Source: Apibacter sp. B3706 (GTDB lineage: Bacteria; Bacteroidota; Bacteroidia; Flavobacteriales; Weeksellaceae). Taken from it: a stretch of 64,000 nt of DNA. The notes below the pieces were generated by a model. That model searched no databases. It was not told where the DNA came from and saw only the letters and a program-made list of their open reading frames with translations. Numbering within the stretch: the first letter of the stretch is position 1; every line of letters begins with the position of its first letter. Position numbers and translations under genes: made by a program. Shown one piece after another: positions 1-7,865 of this stretch. The stretch lies in contig NZ_CP049715.1 in NCBI RefSeq assembly GCF_011082725.1, forward strand, positions 868,001 to 932,000, read 5' to 3'.

Positions 1-155
1 TATCAACCCCGCGTCCATTAACTAAAAAAGGAAAATACAAAGTAGAATTTGGAGACAAAGCAACCGATTATACGGCCGCTCCGGAAGACTTTGTGCTTGA
101 CACCGAAATAGAAGACCCCTTAAAAATATATCAAGAAGAATTATTAAAAAAATAA
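1..155 (+). CDS. Phage tail-fibre-like protein, C-terminal end (partial)
   Basis: This is the 3' end of a gene that begins before the window; the first full codon is at position 3 and the stop is TAA at 153-155. The roughly 50 visible residues carry YKVEFGDKATDYT followed by APEDF, the same end as the next gene. Motifs of the type G-x-KATD-[WY]-T-x-APED are common at the end of carbohydrate-binding-like modules in phage tail proteins, so the product is probably a tail fibre or baseplate-attached protein. It lies 6 bp before the next paralogue on the same strand. The function is inferred from this motif and from context. Confidence 0.75.
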   Translation, partial: STPRPLTKKGKYKVEFGDKATDYTAAPEDFVLDTEIEDPLKIYQEELLKK

Positions 156-161
156 AAAACT

Positions 162-1109
162 ATGAGCTTATTATACCTACCCGAATGGCTTAAAAAAGCC
201 AATGAAACCTTTAAACAAATAGGTAATAACATTAAAAAATTATATGAAACTCTTAACAATAAAGTAGATAAAGAAGCAGGAAAAGGCCTTTCAGAGCAAA
301 ACTTTACCAAACAAGAAAAAGACAAACTAAAAAGTCTTTCCAACAAATATTTAGGAACTTATGCTTCCTTTGAAGCCTTGTGTGCGGCTTATCCCGAAAC
401 CGAAACCAATGCACAAAAGTGGAACCCTTCCAAAGAAGGCGGGTTTTATGCCGATGTAGACGAAGGAAAAGGCAAAAAAGTATCTCGTTACATTTGGGAC
501 ACTAACGATTTTACATGGACTAAACAGGAAGGAACATCTACCGCTTTAACGGCATCCCAAATAAAGGAAATGTACGAGTCCAATGCAAATACCAATGCCT
601 TTACCGATAAAGAAAAACAAACGGTAAACACGGTAGAAAAAGATATCGAAAGTTTAAAAAACGTCAAAATTGGAACAAGAAATTTACTATATGCAGGAAA
701 ATCCGAAAAAGAAAAATTATTTGGATATATAGGTGATGACGGTAAAATAATGAACAATGAGCGAGATATTTATACTGATTTTATAGAGGTTAAAGACTAC
801 TTGAAAATAGTCGTGAAATGTTGGAGTAAGCCTTCAGGAGGACACCCTGTCATAGCTTTTTACGATAAAGATAAAAAATTTATCAAAAAAGAATATTTTA
901 ATGAAAATACTTATTACGAACTGATACTTGATATACCTGCTAATACCTTTTATTTACGAATATCGGCCCCGCGTCCATCAACTACAAACGGGAAATACAA
1001 AGTAGAATTTGGAGACAAAGCAACCGATTATACAGACGCACCGGAAGACTTTGTGCTTGATTTCCAAACAGAAGATCCACTAAATGTTTATCTAGAAGCC
1101 TTAAAATAA
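162..1109 (+). CDS. Phage tail-fibre-like protein, paralogue 2
   Basis: A 315-aa protein. Residues 1-60 are helical and polar and include LSEQNFTKQEKDKLKSL (43-59); a second similar segment, TASQIKEMYESNANTNAF, lies at about 130-147. Such N-terminal stretches recur in tail fibres and baseplate proteins. Residues 171-296 form a beta-rich module starting GTRNLLYAGK and ending VEFGDKATDYTDAPED, matching the modules of the flanking genes. The start ATG follows the upstream stop by 6 bp, so the paralogues form one transcription unit. Likely role: adsorption structure of a prophage. The assignment as tail fibre is inference; no receptor-binding domain can be named. Confidence 0.75.
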   Translation: MSLLYLPEWLKKANETFKQIGNNIKKLYETLNNKVDKEAGKGLSEQNFTKQEKDKLKSLSNKYLGTYASFEALCAAYPETETNAQKWNPSKEGGFYADVDEGKGKKVSRYIWDTNDFTWTKQEGTSTALTASQIKEMYESNANTNAFTDKEKQTVNTVEKDIESLKNVKIGTRNLLYAGKSEKEKLFGYIGDDGKIMNNERDIYTDFIEVKDYLKIVVKCWSKPSGGHPVIAFYDKDKKFIKKEYFNENTYYELILDIPANTFYLRISAPRPSTTNGKYKVEFGDKATDYTDAPEDFVLDFQTEDPLNVYLEALK

Positions 1110-1116
1110 TTAAAAG

Positions 1117-2013
1117 ATGAGCTTAATAAACCTAAAATCTTTCTGTCAACAAACTAATCAAACTTTTTCAGTAATAGCAAAGGATTATAAAAGATTCCGA
1201 ACACATGTCAATAGTATGTTTGAGTCCTTAACAATCGGAGGTCGAAATATTCTATGTGAAAAAAAATGTTTAGAGGAAAAACGTTTTGGTTATTTAGGTG
1301 AACAAGGAGAAATAATTACAGATGATAATTATATATATACTGATTATATACCGGTATATGATTATGAATATATTACAATAAAGTTATGGGGAGGTAGTAA
1401 TAGAAATTTTAGAGCTTCGTTATCTTATTATCAATCTAATAAAGAATATGCAGGCTCACGAACACTTCCTTCTGATTCATATTCAGTAAATACGTTTAAT
1501 ATACCCGGAGTGGCATATTTCGTAAGAATATCCGTTCCTCATCCTAGATTTCAAGTCAAGTACAAAGTAGAATTTGGAGATAAAGCAACCGATTATACTC
1601 CTGCCCTGGAAGATTACCCATACTTAAATCAAAAAATTTATGACAAAGAAACTCTCAACTGGAATTTTCATCCGAAAACTGACGTAATTTCTTTTTTAGC
1701 TGTAAAAGAAGGAGGCTTGGTTGTAATTACGGCAACAATATACATTAAAAACGCCGAAGAAAAAGAGGTAATAACCTTATTTAAAGTCCCGGAAGAATTG
1801 AAAGGCAAGACTGATGTAAACCAATTAATAAATGTCGTTCGGTTGAGTACAATCATGGGTAACAGAAGTACCCTCAGAGAGCTAGATTATTTCTGTGAGA
1901 ATGGTAGCGTAACTATTTCTAATACTAAATTCGAAGGAGTTAATGATTCCTTTAACGATTTCAAAGACAGTAAAGTACGAATAACTTTAACGTATCCCTG
2001 CTTAAAAATTTAG
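1117..2013 (+). CDS. Phage tail-fibre-like protein, paralogue 3 with unique C-terminus
   Basis: A 298-aa protein. The first 40 residues resemble the start of the previous gene (MSL, then a short helix). Residues 41-166 are the shared module, from GGRNILCEKK to VEFGDKATDYTPALED. Unlike the two upstream copies it has about 130 more residues with no counterpart there, rich in beta-strand-like segments, which could be the distal receptor-contact part. It starts 7 bp after the previous stop. The long spacer segment present in paralogue 2 (residues 40-170) is missing here, so the three genes look like rearranged versions of one modular protein. Confidence 0.72.
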   Translation: MSLINLKSFCQQTNQTFSVIAKDYKRFRTHVNSMFESLTIGGRNILCEKKCLEEKRFGYLGEQGEIITDDNYIYTDYIPVYDYEYITIKLWGGSNRNFRASLSYYQSNKEYAGSRTLPSDSYSVNTFNIPGVAYFVRISVPHPRFQVKYKVEFGDKATDYTPALEDYPYLNQKIYDKETLNWNFHPKTDVISFLAVKEGGLVVITATIYIKNAEEKEVITLFKVPEELKGKTDVNQLINVVRLSTIMGNRSTLRELDYFCENGSVTISNTKFEGVNDSFNDFKDSKVRITLTYPCLKI

Positions 2014-2051: not shown

Positions 2052-2462
2052 ATGAAAGAAATAATAGATAAAATAATGTCTTTTGGCGATTGGTTTATAA
2101 CCAACGCTTTCAAAAAAGAATTTTTATTTCTGTTAGTCTGCGCCTTAATGCTCATCCCCGCCTATATATTCCACGATGAGTTGGAAGATAAAAAAAGAGA
2201 AAAGATAGAATGCGACAAAAACAGAGAAGAGGAAAAAGACGAGTATTATTTAGAACTGAAGAAAAAAGATGAAAAATACGATGAACTGGAAAAAAAGTAC
2301 ATAGAACAAAACCAAAAATGTTATGAGAAATGGGTGGAATACTTAGGCGAAACCAAAAAAGAATATCACCATATAACTAAAGATATTCAAGATAACGAAA
2401 AAATAATTAGAGAAGCAAACGAAGCTATTTTAAGACTAAAAAAACTAAAAAAAGAAAAATAG
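2052..2462 (+). CDS. Small membrane protein with coiled coil, prophage lysis region
   Basis: Product of 136 aa from the ATG at 2052; a TTG at 2031 would add seven residues but is less likely. One hydrophobic segment at about residues 15-34 is followed by a long charged coiled-coil tail (roughly 37-130, Lys/Glu rich). It sits directly before two more membrane-anchored proteins and the M15 peptidase, with 1-3 bp gaps. A holin-like or spanin-like job fits the position but nothing in the sequence proves it. I do not recognise a named family. Confidence 0.6.
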   Translation: MKEIIDKIMSFGDWFITNAFKKEFLFLLVCALMLIPAYIFHDELEDKKREKIECDKNREEEKDEYYLELKKKDEKYDELEKKYIEQNQKCYEKWVEYLGETKKEYHHITKDIQDNEKIIREANEAILRLKKLKKEK

Positions 2463-2463
2463 T

Positions 2464-2853
2464 ATGAAACTAAAATTTATCATATCGGCCCTTGTAGTAC
2501 TCCTTTTTTGTTATTTACTCAAGCCTTATCCTTTAGAGTATAAGACGCATCACAGAAATACAGAAAGCAAGAAAAACCGCTTTGCTGTTTCTGAGTTGCC
2601 GAATATCGATTCCATAAAAACCATAACAAGCAAAAACGTAACCAGCATCAAAGCGAAAAGGAAACAATTATTGAATACGGAGGAAAGAAAAAACAAGGTA
2701 CTGAACCAACTTAAAAATGAGTTGGCCTTTGCACAAAAAGAAATAGAAGAAGACAGTAAAAAGCAACAAGAAGCCGCCGAAGAAAATCTAGTAAAAAATC
2801 AAGACAAAGCCCATAAAAAAAGAACAAGAAAAAACAAAACATCAAAAAATTAG
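2464..2853 (+). CDS. Membrane-anchored basic protein, prophage lysis region
   Basis: A 129-aa protein that starts one base after the previous stop. Residues 5-20 (FIISALVVLLFCYLLK) form a signal anchor. The rest is highly charged, with a coiled-coil-like stretch at about 65-110 and a very basic tail. The arrangement (short anchor plus helical periplasmic part) is what Rz-type spanins show, and the endopeptidase gene follows 3 bp later. That role is a guess from context; no family is recognised. Confidence 0.55.
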   Translation: MKLKFIISALVVLLFCYLLKPYPLEYKTHHRNTESKKNRFAVSELPNIDSIKTITSKNVTSIKAKRKQLLNTEERKNKVLNQLKNELAFAQKEIEEDSKKQQEAAEENLVKNQDKAHKKRTRKNKTSKN

Positions 2854-2856
2854 AAT

Positions 2857-3297
2857 ATGAATAAATTCAGTAGCAGGAGTTATAAAAACTTAAAAGATAT
2901 ACATCCGGACCTGGTAACCGTAATGGTAGTGGCCATACAAAACAGTCCTTACGATTTCACCATAACTCAAGGGCTGCGGTCCACTCAAGAACAAAAAGAA
3001 CTTTTTGCACGGGGGAGAACCAAGGCGGGCAAAATTATAACCTATGCCGATGGAGAGAAAAACAAGTCCAACCATCAAGCAAAGGCCGATGGTTACGGCT
3101 ATGCGGTAGACTTATATCCTTATTACAATGGATCCGTACAAACAGGAGAAAAAGGAGAAGGACCGGAAGTACGAAAAAGATTAAAAGCCATAGCAGAACA
3201 CATAAAAAAAGCGGCCAAAGAATTAAAAATTACAGTAGAGTGGGGGGGCGATTGGAAGATGTGCGATGACCCTCATTTTGAGCTGAAAAAACCTTAA
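2857..3297 (+). CDS. M15-family peptidoglycan endopeptidase (phage endolysin)
   Basis: A 146-aa single-domain protein of the VanY/L-Ala-D-Glu peptidase type (Peptidase_M15_4). The zinc site is visible: SNHQ (His73), GYAVDLYP (Asp85) and DDPHFEL (His140), with Asp138 likely catalytic. GLRSTQEQKELFARG (39-53) is the usual segment before the first ligand. It would cut the stem peptide of peptidoglycan at the end of the lytic cycle. There is no signal peptide, so export needs a holin-like partner, consistent with the small membrane proteins on both sides. Length matches phage endolysins of this family. It lies 4 bp before the next gene. Confidence 0.88.
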   Translation: MNKFSSRSYKNLKDIHPDLVTVMVVAIQNSPYDFTITQGLRSTQEQKELFARGRTKAGKIITYADGEKNKSNHQAKADGYGYAVDLYPYYNGSVQTGEKGEGPEVRKRLKAIAEHIKKAAKELKITVEWGGDWKMCDDPHFELKKP

Positions 3298-3301
3298 ACC
3301 A

Positions 3302-3871
3302 ATGAAATCTAAAGAAAAATTCATATTTACCGTTGGAATGCTCGTGATGATATTTGCCGCCTGTTATACGTCTTATAAAGCCGGTAAAAGAAAAGTTATC
3401 ACTAAAACACAGCAAAAAGAAATTAAAGTTTCAGAAAAAAAGGTAAAAACTTACAAAAAAGAATATGACAGCCTACAGAAAGAATACGATAAGTTGGAGC
3501 AGGTAAAACAAGAAGTAAAAAAAATATACCTGAAAGGGAAAGAAAAAATTACGCTTATTACAGAAGAACGGATACAGCAATACAACGATACCCTTTGCCA
3601 AAAAGATGTCCAACAATTGAAAGAACAAGCGTATCAATGCGATAGTTTAGTAGACATCCAAAACATTCAATTAGAAAAAAACAAACACCAATTAAATTTG
3701 TCAAAACTAATTATCGATGAAAAAGACAAAGAAATAGGGATTTACAAGAATAAAAAAAGCAAAATAAACCCCGTTGGTATCGGTATTTTTGGAGGCTATG
3801 GCACCGACTTTAAAAACGGATGGACACCAACCGTTGGCGTTGGTATAAGCTATAATTTTATAAGGCTTTAA
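3302..3871 (+). CDS. Signal-anchored coiled-coil protein with C-terminal Gly-rich beta segment
   Basis: A 189-aa protein. Residues 7-25 form a membrane anchor, 35-155 a long Lys/Glu/Gln coiled coil, and the last 34 residues are Gly-rich and end in VGVGISYNFIRL. The last part looks like a beta-barrel strand end, as in outer-membrane proteins. Phage-borne proteins of Bacteroidota with this plan sit after the lysis enzyme and are spanin-like candidates that would link inner and outer membranes; this is inference from plan and position. It is the last gene of the rightward tail-lysis run. Confidence 0.58.
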   Translation: MKSKEKFIFTVGMLVMIFAACYTSYKAGKRKVITKTQQKEIKVSEKKVKTYKKEYDSLQKEYDKLEQVKQEVKKIYLKGKEKITLITEERIQQYNDTLCQKDVQQLKEQAYQCDSLVDIQNIQLEKNKHQLNLSKLIIDEKDKEIGIYKNKKSKINPVGIGIFGGYGTDFKNGWTPTVGVGISYNFIRL

Positions 3872-4098
3872 AAATTAATCAATAAAACGAAATAATTATA
3901 ACTTCTATTCATTTGTTTTTTTGTTAGATGGGCTTATTGAAACCAGTTATTTAAGCGTTTTAATAATATATAAACCATTAATTATATTAAAAACTATTTT
4001 AAAAAAATTATTTGATTATATTAGTACTACAACTTTAAATATTAAAAAAACAAATAAATATAATGTTATTTTATACTTATTTTATTTAGATAAATTTT

Positions 4099-4106
4099 TA
4101 TCTTTG
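4099..4106 (+). promoter_or_regulatory. Bacteroidota -7 box TATCTTTG
   Basis: TATCTTTG matches TAnnTTTG, 20 bp before the ATG at 4127. It gives the two small membrane genes their own promoter, separate from the late tail-lysis run, which is what a gene expressed in the prophage state would need. No clear TTTG -33 element is seen. Confidence 0.55.
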
Positions 4107-4126
4107 CATTACTTTTCAATTGTACT

Positions 4127-4420
4127 ATGAAAAATTATGTGCTAGATGGCGTAAAGTTTCAAATTGAATATCTGTTTGCTAATTTTGGAATAATTATAGC
4201 ATTATTTGTTGTAGGTTTTACAATAGGGTATCTTTTTAAAAAATATATTTCCGATAGTGATTTTAAAAAACAAATAAATTTAAGGATACAAGAAAAGGAT
4301 GAAACAATAATGGATTTGAGATATATTATTTATGATAAATTAAAAGAAGTTAAGGTTGAAAAGAAAGATTATTTATTTTTTAAAAGGTTAAAAGAATTTT
4401 TTAAAAAAATTAAAACATGA
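4127..4420 (+). CDS. Small membrane-anchored protein of unknown function
   Basis: A 97-aa protein. One transmembrane segment lies at about residues 18-40 (FGIIIALFVVGFTIGYLF) and the remainder is a charged cytoplasmic tail. Its stop overlaps the start of the next gene by 4 bp (ATGA), so the two are translationally coupled. The pair has its own -7 box and is more AT-rich than the tail genes upstream. Prophage genes in this position are often lysogenic-conversion or superinfection-exclusion genes, but no family is recognised and no function is claimed. Confidence 0.6.
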   Translation: MKNYVLDGVKFQIEYLFANFGIIIALFVVGFTIGYLFKKYISDSDFKKQINLRIQEKDETIMDLRYIIYDKLKEVKVEKKDYLFFKRLKEFFKKIKT

Positions 4421-4953
4421 ATATATTAATAACAATACTATCTTTAGCACTATTAGTGTATATGTTGCTCCATCAATATATAAAGCAAAAAAAGGAAGTG
4501 TTAATATTGAAATTAGCTTCCGATTATGATAAGATGGAACTTGCCTATATAAAAAATAAGAAAAATTTAGAAAAAGAAGACATTGAATTTTTAAAAATAT
4601 TTAAGAATATAGTTGTTAATCCTGAATTTCTAGACTTTAAAATAAAATTAATTATTTTTCTAAATTCTTTGGAAGATCAAGAGTATGCAAAAGATAAAAA
4701 GAATTTAAATGAAGTAATTAAAATTCAAAATAAAGAATTTTTAAAAGCTTATGATCAATTTAATGATACATCAAAAAAACTCACAATCTTAAGTACTTAT
4801 AGTCTTTCCGTTTTAATTTTTATTACTAAGCTTATTTTTAAATCCATGGTAAGAAATGGTTTTTCTAGTTTAAAGGTAAATTATAAAAAACATCTATCAG
4901 AAATTAAAGATGTTTTAAATAATAAAGATATTCTTCTCTCAAAATGTGAGTAA
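4417..4953 (+). CDS. Membrane-associated protein of unknown function, partner of the preceding gene
   Basis: A 178-aa protein. Residues 3-19 are a hydrophobic N-terminal anchor; the rest is helical and charged, with a less polar stretch at about 130-145 (LSVLIFITKLIFKSM). It is coupled to the upstream gene by a 4-bp overlap. Its last 56 codons are present again at 6302-6472, where they are cut off from any start. The gene lies tail-to-tail with a leftward integrase remnant at 4962-5012. No family is recognised. Confidence 0.62.
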   Translation: MNILITILSLALLVYMLLHQYIKQKKEVLILKLASDYDKMELAYIKNKKNLEKEDIEFLKIFKNIVVNPEFLDFKIKLIIFLNSLEDQEYAKDKKNLNEVIKIQNKEFLKAYDQFNDTSKKLTILSTYSLSVLIFITKLIFKSMVRNGFSSLKVNYKKHLSEIKDVLNNKDILLSKCE

Positions 4954-5012
4954 TTAATTTATCATTCTATCAATTTTTTCATATCATCAACCACTTTTTT
5001 ACCCATCATTTT
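4783..5012. repeat. 230-bp direct repeat, copy A
   Basis: Matches 6302-6531 (copy B) without gaps; my hand alignment finds about 21 mismatches in 230 positions, roughly 91 percent identity. It spans the 3' end of the 4417-4953 gene and the last 17 codons of an integrase on the opposite strand. The match stops abruptly at 5012, just before the DUF5131 gene region. Confidence 0.92.
4962..5012 (-). pseudogene. Integrase 3'-end remnant
   Basis: On the minus strand this encodes KMMGKKVVDDMKKLIE and a TGA stop, nearly identical to the C-terminus of the integrase at 6481-7611 (KMLGKKVVDDMKKLIE). Nothing of the rest of an integrase lies to its right; the sequence changes at 5013 into the DUF5131 cassette. 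It is a fossil of an integrase that once ended here. Confidence 0.85.
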
Positions 5013-5064
5013 CTTGGATAAAGATCTATTTATTTCTATCTTTATAAGAGATAACTTACTTAAG

Positions 5065-5826
5065 ATGAAAACAAAAATAGAATGGACAGAGGCAACATGG
5101 AATCCTTCAACAGGTTGTAATAAAATAACAGCAGGTTGTAAATTTTGCTATGCTGAGGTAATGGCAAAAAGGTTACAAGCAATGGGAACTCCGGGATATG
5201 AAAATGGATTTGAATTTACTTTAATGCCTGAACGGTTAGAATTACCAAAAAAAATAAAGAAACCAACAAAATTTTTTGTGAACTCTATGAGTGACCTTTT
5301 CCATGAAAAAATGCCATTTCACTTTTTAGATAAAATTTTTAACACTATACGTGAAACACCTCAGCACCAATACCAAATTTTAACTAAAAGAGAAAATATA
5401 TTAAAACAATATTTTGAAAATAGAACAATTCCTGATAATGTATGGCTTGGAGTAACAGTAGAAGACGCAAAAACTAAATATAGGATTGATATTTTAAGAA
5501 AAATTCCTGCTAAAATTAAATTTTTATCTATAGAGCCTCTTATAGGCTCTGTTGGTAAATTAGATTTAACAAATATTGATTGGGTTATTGTTGGTGGCGA
5601 AAGTGGAAACAAAGCAAGACCTATGAATCCTGAATGGGCAGAAAAAATCCTAACACAATGTAAAGAACAGGGTGTAGCATTCTTTTTTAAACAATGGGGA
5701 ACTTGGGGAGAGGATGGAATAAAGAGAAATAAAAAGATTAATGGCAGTTTACTCTCTGGAAAAGAGTGGAAAGAAATGCCTGAAATTTCCAAAAAATTTG
5801 AAAAGAAATCATTAACATTAATATAA
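5065..5826 (+). CDS. Gp37/Gp68-family (DUF5131) three-cysteine protein
   Basis: A 253-aa protein from the ATG at 5065; a TTG at 5014 would add 17 residues that do not look like the family start, which normally opens near I-E-W-T-x-x-T-W-N-P. Three cysteines lie as C18-x6-C25-x2-C28, a radical-SAM-like cluster motif. The family (phage Gp37/Gp68, PF07505) occurs in phages and in accessory islands, often next to a three-Cys-motif partner gene (TcmP); no such partner is present here. The biochemical role is not firmly known. The gene sits alone between two 230-bp repeats and has a terminator at 5969-6005, so it looks like a cargo cassette. Confidence 0.85.
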   Translation: MKTKIEWTEATWNPSTGCNKITAGCKFCYAEVMAKRLQAMGTPGYENGFEFTLMPERLELPKKIKKPTKFFVNSMSDLFHEKMPFHFLDKIFNTIRETPQHQYQILTKRENILKQYFENRTIPDNVWLGVTVEDAKTKYRIDILRKIPAKIKFLSIEPLIGSVGKLDLTNIDWVIVGGESGNKARPMNPEWAEKILTQCKEQGVAFFFKQWGTWGEDGIKRNKKINGSLLSGKEWKEMPEISKKFEKKSLTLI

Positions 5827-6301
5827 GTTTTTAAATCATTCTAAATTATTTAATTTCAGAGTGATTTTTTATATTCTAGAGTAAAAATTTTTGTAAGAAA
5901 GAAGAATTATTTATACATTTATGATATGAGTTTATTTGAAGTATAAATAATTTTTATTCTTCTTAATTAAAAAAAGCCTAATTTCAATAATTTAGGCTTT
6001 TTTTTATGATGTTATAAAAGAAGTTTTCTACTAATTCTTAATATTTTTATTAAAGATTATTTTGAAAAATTTAGCGCTACAACTTTAACAAATATATATA
6101 TATTATTAAATAAAAATGACTAATACTTTAAATAACTAATTTGTTGTTTAACGAAAAATACAATTATCTTAAATAAGCAGGTTTAATTTTAAAAAAAACA
6201 TCTGTTTATTAAATAACTTAGTTTGTTCTTTGAATAAGATTTTATTATAAAATCAAAATTTCGATAATATTTTCTTTTATGGAATCTAGATTTTTTAACT
6301 T
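5827..6301. other. Gene-free stretch between DUF5131 gene and repeat copy B
   Basis: Very AT-rich. It holds an imperfect inverted repeat (arms near 5898-5916 and 5941-5964), the terminator at 5969-6005, and then about 300 bp with no open frame of note. A 17-nt stretch near 6070 (TAGCGCTACAACTTTAA) resembles one near 4020 (TAGTACTACAACTTTAA), upstream of the small membrane pair, so part of this region may be a decayed copy of that upstream region. Confidence 0.6.
5969..6005 (+). terminator. Rho-independent terminator after DUF5131 gene
   Basis: Arms AAAAAAAGCCTAA and TTAGGCTTTTTTT flank a 10-nt loop, followed by a T run. It lies about 140 bp after the DUF5131 stop. Confidence 0.8.
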
Positions 6302-6472
6302 ACAATCTTAAGTACTTATAGTCTTTCCGTTTTAATTTTTATTAGTAAACTTTTTTTTAAATTCCTGGTTAGAAATGGTTTTTCCAGTCTAAAGGTGAAT
6401 TATAAAAAAATAATATCAGAAATTAAAAATGTTTTGAATAATAAAGATGTTCTTCTTCCAAAATTTGAGTAA
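6302..6472 (+). pseudogene. 3' fragment of the small membrane gene (copy of 4417-4953)
   Basis: In frame it gives LSTYSLSVLIFISKLFFK and continues to a TAA at 6470-6472, matching the last 56 codons of the 4417-4953 product with substitutions. No start codon or upstream part of the gene is present to the left of 6302. It is a truncated duplicate, not an expressed gene. Confidence 0.88.
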
Positions 6473-6531
6473 TTAATTTATCACTCTATCAATTTTTTCA
6501 TATCATCAACCACTTTTTTACCCAACATTTT
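6302..6531. repeat. 230-bp direct repeat, copy B
   Basis: Second copy of 4783-5012, at a constant offset of 1519 bp. Here the integrase part is continuous with a full-length integrase gene, so copy B is the parental arrangement on the right side, while copy A is parental on the left side (complete membrane gene). Confidence 0.92.
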
Positions 6532-7611
6532 AGCGTAGTGTTGTGTCTGTTTTAAATTAGAATGGCCTAAAGCTCTGCTTACTGTTTCAATAGGCATACT
6601 TTTATTAAGTAAATACGTGGCAAAAGTATGACGAGCAACGTGACTGGTAAGTTTTTTAGTAAGTCCGACATATTCACCAACTATTTTTAAATAATCATTA
6701 TATTTTTGATTGCTTATTTTAGGTAGTTTATAATCAAATTTTTTTAACACCCTTTCGGCTTCCGGTAAAAGTAATGATATAAAACTTTCATCGGTCTTTT
6801 TTCTATTAGACCGAATAACTTTATACCCGTCCAGTTCAACGATATATTCACTATTGAATAGTTGAGTGTCGGCATATGACATACCGGTATAACATTGAAA
6901 TAAAAATAACTCTCTGACTCTGTCAATTTTAGGGTTATCAAATTCAAATAAATAAATACAGTCAACTTCATTAGGAGTTAAAAATACAGGCTTCTTAGAC
7001 TTACCTTTTGAAATTTTAAATAAATCGTAGGGATTAGATTTACAAAGTCCCCTTTTAATCGCCTCATTAATATATCCCTTAAACAAACTATGACGTTTGT
7101 AAAGAGTAGGGGAAGATTTAATAAACTGTCTTAAATACTCATCAAAGTCTAATAAATTTTTGTAGGTTAAATCAGCAAATACTTTAATTTTTCCAAAGTC
7201 TTCAAGCCTTCTCAAAAACGATTTATTATATTCTATGACAGATAAAGACGGATCGCGCCGTTTTAATTCAGAATAAATAAATTCAACTATTGAATGGGTT
7301 AAAGATTCATCTTTATTCCAGTTTTTGGCATCTTCTAAGGAATTGCAGTTTTCCGATAAAACAAATGCCTCAATATTCCTAAATATTCGATGAGCCTTAG
7401 CGGTTATAGCAGATGCATTAGGATGGTTTTTGCAGGTAAATCCGTTTTTGGATGTAAATTCAGATGGTTTTAATCTAATGCCTGTAGATATAAATATACG
7501 GTTTATGGTTTTGTTCTGCCTTACTTCAATATGTAATAGCCCGGTTTCTTTACCTTTATTCTTAATTTCATTTTTCCTGTCGAATATAAAGCGTAATGAT
7601 AAGCTATCCAT
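6481..7611 (-). CDS. Tyrosine recombinase (phage-type integrase)
   Basis: A 376-aa site-specific integrase of the Bacteroidota phage or conjugative-element type: an N-terminal arm-binding region (about 1-90), a SAM-like core-binding domain (about 100-205) and a catalytic domain (about 215-376). Visible catalytic residues are H324-x-x-R327 (SHVARHTF), H350 (ALGHSNL) and nucleophile Y359 (QHYAKML). The usual first arginine, in TGLR, is replaced (TGMSYAD), as also known for IntDOT-like enzymes. It begins 168 bp from the 3' end of a tRNA-Ser, the classical position of an integrase beside its attachment site. It would drive integration and excision of the element to its left. Confidence 0.92.
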   Translation of the reverse strand: MDSLSLRFIFDRKNEIKNKGKETGLLHIEVRQNKTINRIFISTGIRLKPSEFTSKNGFTCKNHPNASAITAKAHRIFRNIEAFVLSENCNSLEDAKNWNKDESLTHSIVEFIYSELKRRDPSLSVIEYNKSFLRRLEDFGKIKVFADLTYKNLLDFDEYLRQFIKSSPTLYKRHSLFKGYINEAIKRGLCKSNPYDLFKISKGKSKKPVFLTPNEVDCIYLFEFDNPKIDRVRELFLFQCYTGMSYADTQLFNSEYIVELDGYKVIRSNRKKTDESFISLLLPEAERVLKKFDYKLPKISNQKYNDYLKIVGEYVGLTKKLTSHVARHTFATYLLNKSMPIETVSRALGHSNLKQTQHYAKMLGKKVVDDMKKLIE

Positions 7612-7773: not shown

Positions 7774-7778
7774 ATTAG

Positions 7779-7865
7779 CAGAGAGGATGGGATTCGAACC
7801 CACGATACGGTTACCCGTATACTACCTTTCCAGGGTAGCCTCTTCAACCACTCGAGCACCTCTCT
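7779..7865 (-). tRNA. tRNA-Ser (GGA)
   Basis: An 87-nt class II tRNA on the minus strand. The acceptor stem AGAGAGG pairs with CCTCTCT, with discriminator G at 7779 and no encoded CCA. The anticodon loop CTGGAAA gives anticodon GGA; a long variable arm (TATACGGGTAACCGTAT) and the T-loop GGTTCGAATCC are present. The 3' half faces the integrase, so it is the likely attachment site of the element on the left. Confidence 0.95.

Follow-up and report, generated by a model that had tools for sequence, protein, structure and literature searches.

Why does a DUF5131 gene in an Apibacter prophage lie between two copies of a direct repeat, and does the repeat record the arrival of that gene or some other event? 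The host, Apibacter sp. B3706, is a bee-gut bacterium, and the prophage sits at the 3' end of a tRNA-Ser gene; we refer to the whole stretch of DNA analyzed, 64,000 nucleotides long, as the window. A sequence-only reading had taken the repeats as the footprint of recombination between related elements, or of a tandem duplication, that had carried the DUF5131 cassette in. In our analysis, mosaic turnover at a hotspot for prophage cargo accounts well for the locus (Table 1), which adds an example to a kind already described. The repeat pair is most likely a record of ordinary phage gene shuffling, with DUF5131 already present before the repeat arose.

Table 1. Features at the integrase end of the prophage, in window coordinates
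Feature	Position	Strand	Evidence and remarks
Last lysis-cluster gene, left border of slot	3302..3871	+	189 aa; same neighbor in L081, L083 and L084
Left flank of slot, likely left-crossover zone	3872..3974		Common to L083/L084 (methylase carriers); divergence after 3974
Membrane-operon promoter region	3995..4126	+	79% match to region upstream of L081 membrane gene
Operon gene 1	4127..4420	+	97 aa, one transmembrane segment (hydropathy)
Operon gene 2 (the full small membrane gene)	4417..4953	+	178 aa, N-terminal transmembrane segment (hydropathy)
Left repeat copy	4778..5012		Repeat search and alignment
Integrase tail relic, no integrase attached	4962..5012	-	Alignment to 6481-6531
Junction of integrase tail and cassette left flank	5006..5013		BLAST edge 5006 in L083/L084; junction sequences
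DUF5131 gene	5065..5826	+	253 aa from ATG 5065; PF07505, E 6e-105; phrog_2045
Terminator hairpins after DUF5131	5827..6005	+	Fold of 5883-6005: -30.9 kcal/mol, z -4.8
Operon promoter-region relic, upstream of right copy	6045..6090	+	Aligns with L081 and with upstream region of left operon
Right repeat copy	6297..6531		Repeat search and alignment; common to all four prophages, whole or in part
Stump of operon gene 2	6297..6472	+	No start codon; in-frame stops upstream (translation)
Tyrosine integrase	6481..7611	-	376 aa; PF00589 and PF13102
tRNA-Ser(gga), insertion site	7778..7865	-	ARAGORN, Rfam

A repeat search of the window gave two ungapped copies of 235 bp at a spacing of 1519, five more base pairs than the 230-bp, roughly 91% identical repeat first described. 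By exact count the copies agree at 213 of 235 positions (90.6%), leaving 22 mismatches. Searched against the 2.30-Mb genome, the repeat strongly matches only its own two copies (E values of 3e-117 and 1e-88; the next is 1e-4), and the best other ungapped match within the window reaches 109/235; chance is thus excluded as its source. Each copy joins the 3' end of a membrane gene (stop codons at 4953 on the left and, in a stump of the gene, 6472 on the right) to the last 51 nt of the integrase on the opposite strand. The content proposed for the copies by the sequence-only reading is therefore borne out, as is its layout, with the full membrane gene at the left copy, the full integrase at the right copy and DUF5131 in between. 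A composite transposon or insertion cassette was considered and rejected, as the repeats contain gene tails alone and the repeat search of the window found no inverted repeats or target duplications framing the cargo.

The nearest match to the integrase in a named genome is from Apibacter mensalis (81% over the part compared), and the prophage carries a repeat of the 3' end of the tRNA-Ser gene (about 7778-7799) at its other end, ~50 kb upstream (L028 13139-13257). An Rfam scan matched the tRNA alone, and a search of phage GenBank with the 3.2-kb locus gave zero matches. The tRNA-Ser end sequence occurs twice more upstream of the prophage, within L028 4660-13257 (genome 816,660-825,257), where there lie a decayed prophage end and then an 8-kb element with a truncated integrase and with genes that we take to be type I restriction-modification. 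Elements appear to be stacked at this tRNA-Ser. Separately, window 1-2013 encodes tail-side proteins with common repeated modules, for example ...KYKVEFGDKATDYT..., and at L030 15152-16180, just upstream of the window, lies a sequence 89% identical to window 111-1134.

From the last lysis-cluster gene to the convergent integrase, 3872-6480 is a variable cargo slot of this tRNA-Ser prophage. We compared the IMG/VR prophages with an integrase more than 90% identical, four in number, one of them the window's own or that of an identical strain; the three sisters are L081 (2891296228), L083 (2832298047) and L084 (2891212340). The bordering lysis-cluster gene and integrase are conserved in 4/4, and the contents between them all differ: operon and DUF5131, methylase and DUF5131, methylase, or a truncated membrane gene. 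The slot measures 2.4 kb in the window (3872-6296) and about 1-2.5 kb in the sisters. Farther out among the prophages with this integrase, a lysis-type gene sometimes faces the integrase tail directly; in others cargo does so, namely a HicA toxin and its weak HicB-like partner (L054, L087), a ParE toxin (L048), an IrrE-type peptidase (L042) or a gene with a weak PIN-domain match (L086). These contents in wider relatives support the idea that the position may act as a general cargo slot.

The individual sisters are informative about order. L084 departs from the window at 3974 and rejoins it at 5006, with a methylase gene in between, so that methylase and left module occupy the same place, bounded by these two positions. 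Both DUF5131 (99.0% identical) and its 3' flank (97.2%) are present in L084, followed by the right repeat copy; the left copy is absent. L083 has the same methylase. A deletion from window 5084 to 6387 has brought the start of its DUF5131 gene up against the right copy; it stops within the membrane-gene stump, with hardly any bases shared. In L081 a lone membrane gene and the integrase lie tail-to-tail with nothing between them, which is the cassette-free arrangement that had been predicted to exist. L081 is without operon gene 1 and without the transmembrane segment of gene 2, and upstream it retains remnants of the DUF5131 flank; for this reason L081 appears to have lost the cassette rather than never to have had it. 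An integrase-tail scan placed a second integrase 3' end in the window's prophage alone among the four.

The methylase of L083 and L084, a D12-class DNA adenine methylase (PF02086), has features of its own. Its leaders are strongly folded (-44 and -42 kcal/mol, z about -7.3; L083 4636-4775 and, on the minus strand, L084 3585-3725), and the leader also lies upstream of the methylase in L144. Pairing is possible between an upstream GTCCCC(A/G)GT and the AC(C/T)GGGGAC of the hairpin; the two change together between L083 and L084, which suggests that the leader may adopt alternative or pseudoknot pairing. Against Rfam no family scored above threshold, and a permissive scan gave implausible weak matches only. 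The window strain has a methylase of its own (genome 1,011,357-1,012,157; L147) that shares 52% identity with the slot methylase of the sisters; a single TAA falls within the listed match, and the stretch upstream has no structured leader.

The two repeat copies themselves differ in kind. An old operon-integrase junction survives as a stump in the right copy. About 58 codons of gene 2 are left in it, and the genome-search match to the stump contains an internal TAA. The left copy belongs to the only intact operon among the compared prophages, two genes overlapping by ATGA behind a region with a TATCTTTG motif that we take to be a Bacteroidota -7 type promoter. The operon proteins had zero matches in Pfam, PHROGs, NCBIfam and PADLOC. 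Homologues with the same two-gene arrangement are found in Apibacter genome L131 (gene 1, 48%; gene 2, 42%), where the diverged operon at 1208-1839 neighbors what we assume, reading its own sequence, to be an rsmA/ksgA-like gene; the unit thus occurs outside this prophage. The L081 homologue of gene 2 is 87% identical and N-truncated. Where the left module ends, the junction shares CATC-A/T-TTTT with the L081 flank and TCATTTT with the L084 flank, matches of just 7-9 bases in AT-rich DNA. It looks as though the newly arrived part is this left module of operon and integrase tail, and not the cassette.

Divergence levels bear on the age of the two copies. Across the four prophages, orthologous segments share 95-99% identity; between the window and its sisters, the lysis genes (2052-3871) show 96.5-97.3%, the integrase body 97.1-97.7% and the right copy 95.3-97.2%. 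The left copy is 93.2% identical to L081 and 90.6% to the right copy. An unrooted tree separates the left copy and L081 from the right copy, L083 and L084 with a bootstrap of 94, and places the left copy on a long branch of its own; built from five short sequences, one of them partial, the tree is moderate evidence. Because the copies are at 90.6% where orthologues are at 95-99%, and because of the bootstrap-94 grouping, the left copy did not arise by recent duplication of the right, which groups with the sisters' copies. A recent tandem duplication was accordingly disfavored. From the sequence-only reading, a footprint of recombination between related prophages at this end of the element is supported.

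The account that we consider probable starts from the observed gene contents, junctions, common right copies and divergence levels: a left module imported from a related prophage was placed beside a pre-existing DUF5131, and the right copy is the decayed ancestral operon. The ancestor would have carried DUF5131 and then the two-gene membrane operon, tail-to-tail with the integrase. That order looks ancestral, given the DUF5131-flank leftovers in L081 and the decayed prophage end at L028 4660-5241, which runs from the end of the lysis gene through the DUF5131 terminator and the operon promoter region to the attachment site. On the branch shared by the window and two of the sisters, the operon would have decayed until only its last ~58 codons were left beside the integrase, as the right copy. 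Later, an intact and diverged operon with the 51-nt tail of an integrase that it would once have faced, most likely from a related prophage, would have been placed on the other side of DUF5131 as the left copy, through a left crossover in shared sequence after the lysis cluster and a right join at a few matching bases. Ancestral order, donor, crossover positions and direction of travel are our reconstruction, and the left module may have replaced the methylase module or have been replaced by it. The state of the slot before the import is uncertain, because the cassette flanks of L081 and L084 are not significantly similar (p 0.12-0.16). The direct repeat would then be a by-product of a module swap on the left side of DUF5131 and would not mark the entry of that gene.

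Counting against an import is the small number of relatives, four prophages with the window's own included. Further, no donor with the left operon beside an integrase was found in 40 related genomes and IMG/VR, which gave a distant chromosomal homologue only, and an old duplication followed by different losses would fit most of the same data. With no donor prophage found, such a duplication keeps some probability, though we regard it as unlikely. In it, cassette, operon and integrase tail were doubled in place in an ancestor; afterward the first cassette was lost, the second operon decayed, and in sisters the methylase replaced the left copy. The integrase tail is joined to the cassette start in exactly the order that a tandem duplication would leave, with the first cassette missing, and such a history is consistent with copies that diverged before the three right copies split from one another. 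The scheme nevertheless needs more steps, and it leaves the left copy on its own long branch. Moreover, alignments that could reveal an integrase-tail relic in the cassette flanks of L083/L084 and L081 were no better than shuffles, leaving no trace before the cassette in the former and none in the latter.

That the repeat-making event carried the DUF5131 cassette in between the copies, as the sequence-only reading held, now seems very unlikely. The cassette does lie exactly between the copies, and the arrangement in L081 is cassette-free. But L084 has the cassette and the right copy without the left copy, which would call for a secondary loss there, and L081 keeps its cassette-flank leftovers; the histories of the three sisters thus indicate that the repeats do not mark the insertion of DUF5131. 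We give similarly little credence to the broader proposal that, in Bacteroidota prophages, the integrase 3' end and the tail of the facing gene form a preferred recombination stretch for trading modules, with the tails as scars. Less probable again is an integrase tail that serves as a docking site for repeated insertion and excision of cassettes: the slot always adjoins the integrase 3' end and its contents change often, but the tail is doubled in one of the four prophages only, the L083 deletion ends in the membrane-gene stump with almost no shared bases, and neither inverted repeats nor target duplications were found around the cargo. Finally, repeats can mislead assemblers, but a collapsed or falsely duplicated stretch is hardly credible for copies that differ at 22/235 positions (9.4%) and are separated by 1.5 kb in a genome assembled as one contig; L083 and L084, moreover, each carry the right copy independently.

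The DUF5131 protein, with the Cys-rich motif GCNKITAGCKFCYAE, matches PDC-M30B (PDLC04569; 1.2e-118), subunit B of the PADLOC candidate defense pair PDC-M30 (TcmP and DUF5131). In contrast to that pair, it has no adjoining TcmP: tblastn at 1e-3 found no TcmP gene in the window. With no partner in the locus, the prophage gene falls outside PDC-M30, and it is an orphan relative of subunit B. A complete TcmP-DUF5131 pair lies elsewhere in the same chromosome (L026 4868-6732, genome near 2,194,867-2,196,731; TcmP by NCBIfam TIGR04474), its DUF5131 79% identical to the prophage gene at the DNA level, and such a pair is also found in one IMG/VR phage (L104). A search against solved structures gave zero matches to DUF5131, and none of the papers searched names it. 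The 470 bp 3' of the gene contain the terminator hairpins and the operon promoter-region relic. Part of this, a 124-bp block with a long hairpin and terminator (5883-6005), recurs with 94% identity at L027 5505-5628 (genome 1,676,504-1,676,627); both places lie behind or between accessory genes, and the block could be a small mobile or shared terminator. For the membrane operon, a role in superinfection exclusion or defense is at most a reasonable guess from its position.

In general, the locus carries a lesson for repeat pairs, that a direct repeat around a gene need not signal the insertion of that gene. It also records a hotspot for cargo next to the integrase of Apibacter prophages, and the slot, with its membrane operon, orphan DUF5131 and methylase with structured leader, is a sensible place to seek phage-defense or exclusion genes.

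Two known systems offer comparisons. Phage morons, and mosaic module exchange more broadly, involve independent units with their own promoter and terminators that are swapped whole. The Apibacter modules are alike in being independent transcription units with promoter and terminators that are exchanged as units; the left module differs in that it is not clean and drags along a non-functional integrase tail.

The closer parallel is with prophage diversity hotspots, variable loci of about 1-5 kb that have a conserved phage gene on either side, carry antiviral cargo and turn over fast among close relatives. Such hotspots are reported next to the integrase in Vibrio and Bacillus prophages, and exchange by recombination between co-resident phages has been suggested for them (Rousset et al. 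2022, PMC9122126). The Apibacter slot is similar in its conserved borders, its size and its fast cargo turnover in prophages that are nearly identical elsewhere. It differs in running from the lysis cluster to the integrase 3' end, in Bacteroidota prophages, and in that the defense role of its cargo is a candidate one, drawn solely from profile matches to candidate defense models. It differs also in that turnover here has left a visible duplicated remnant.
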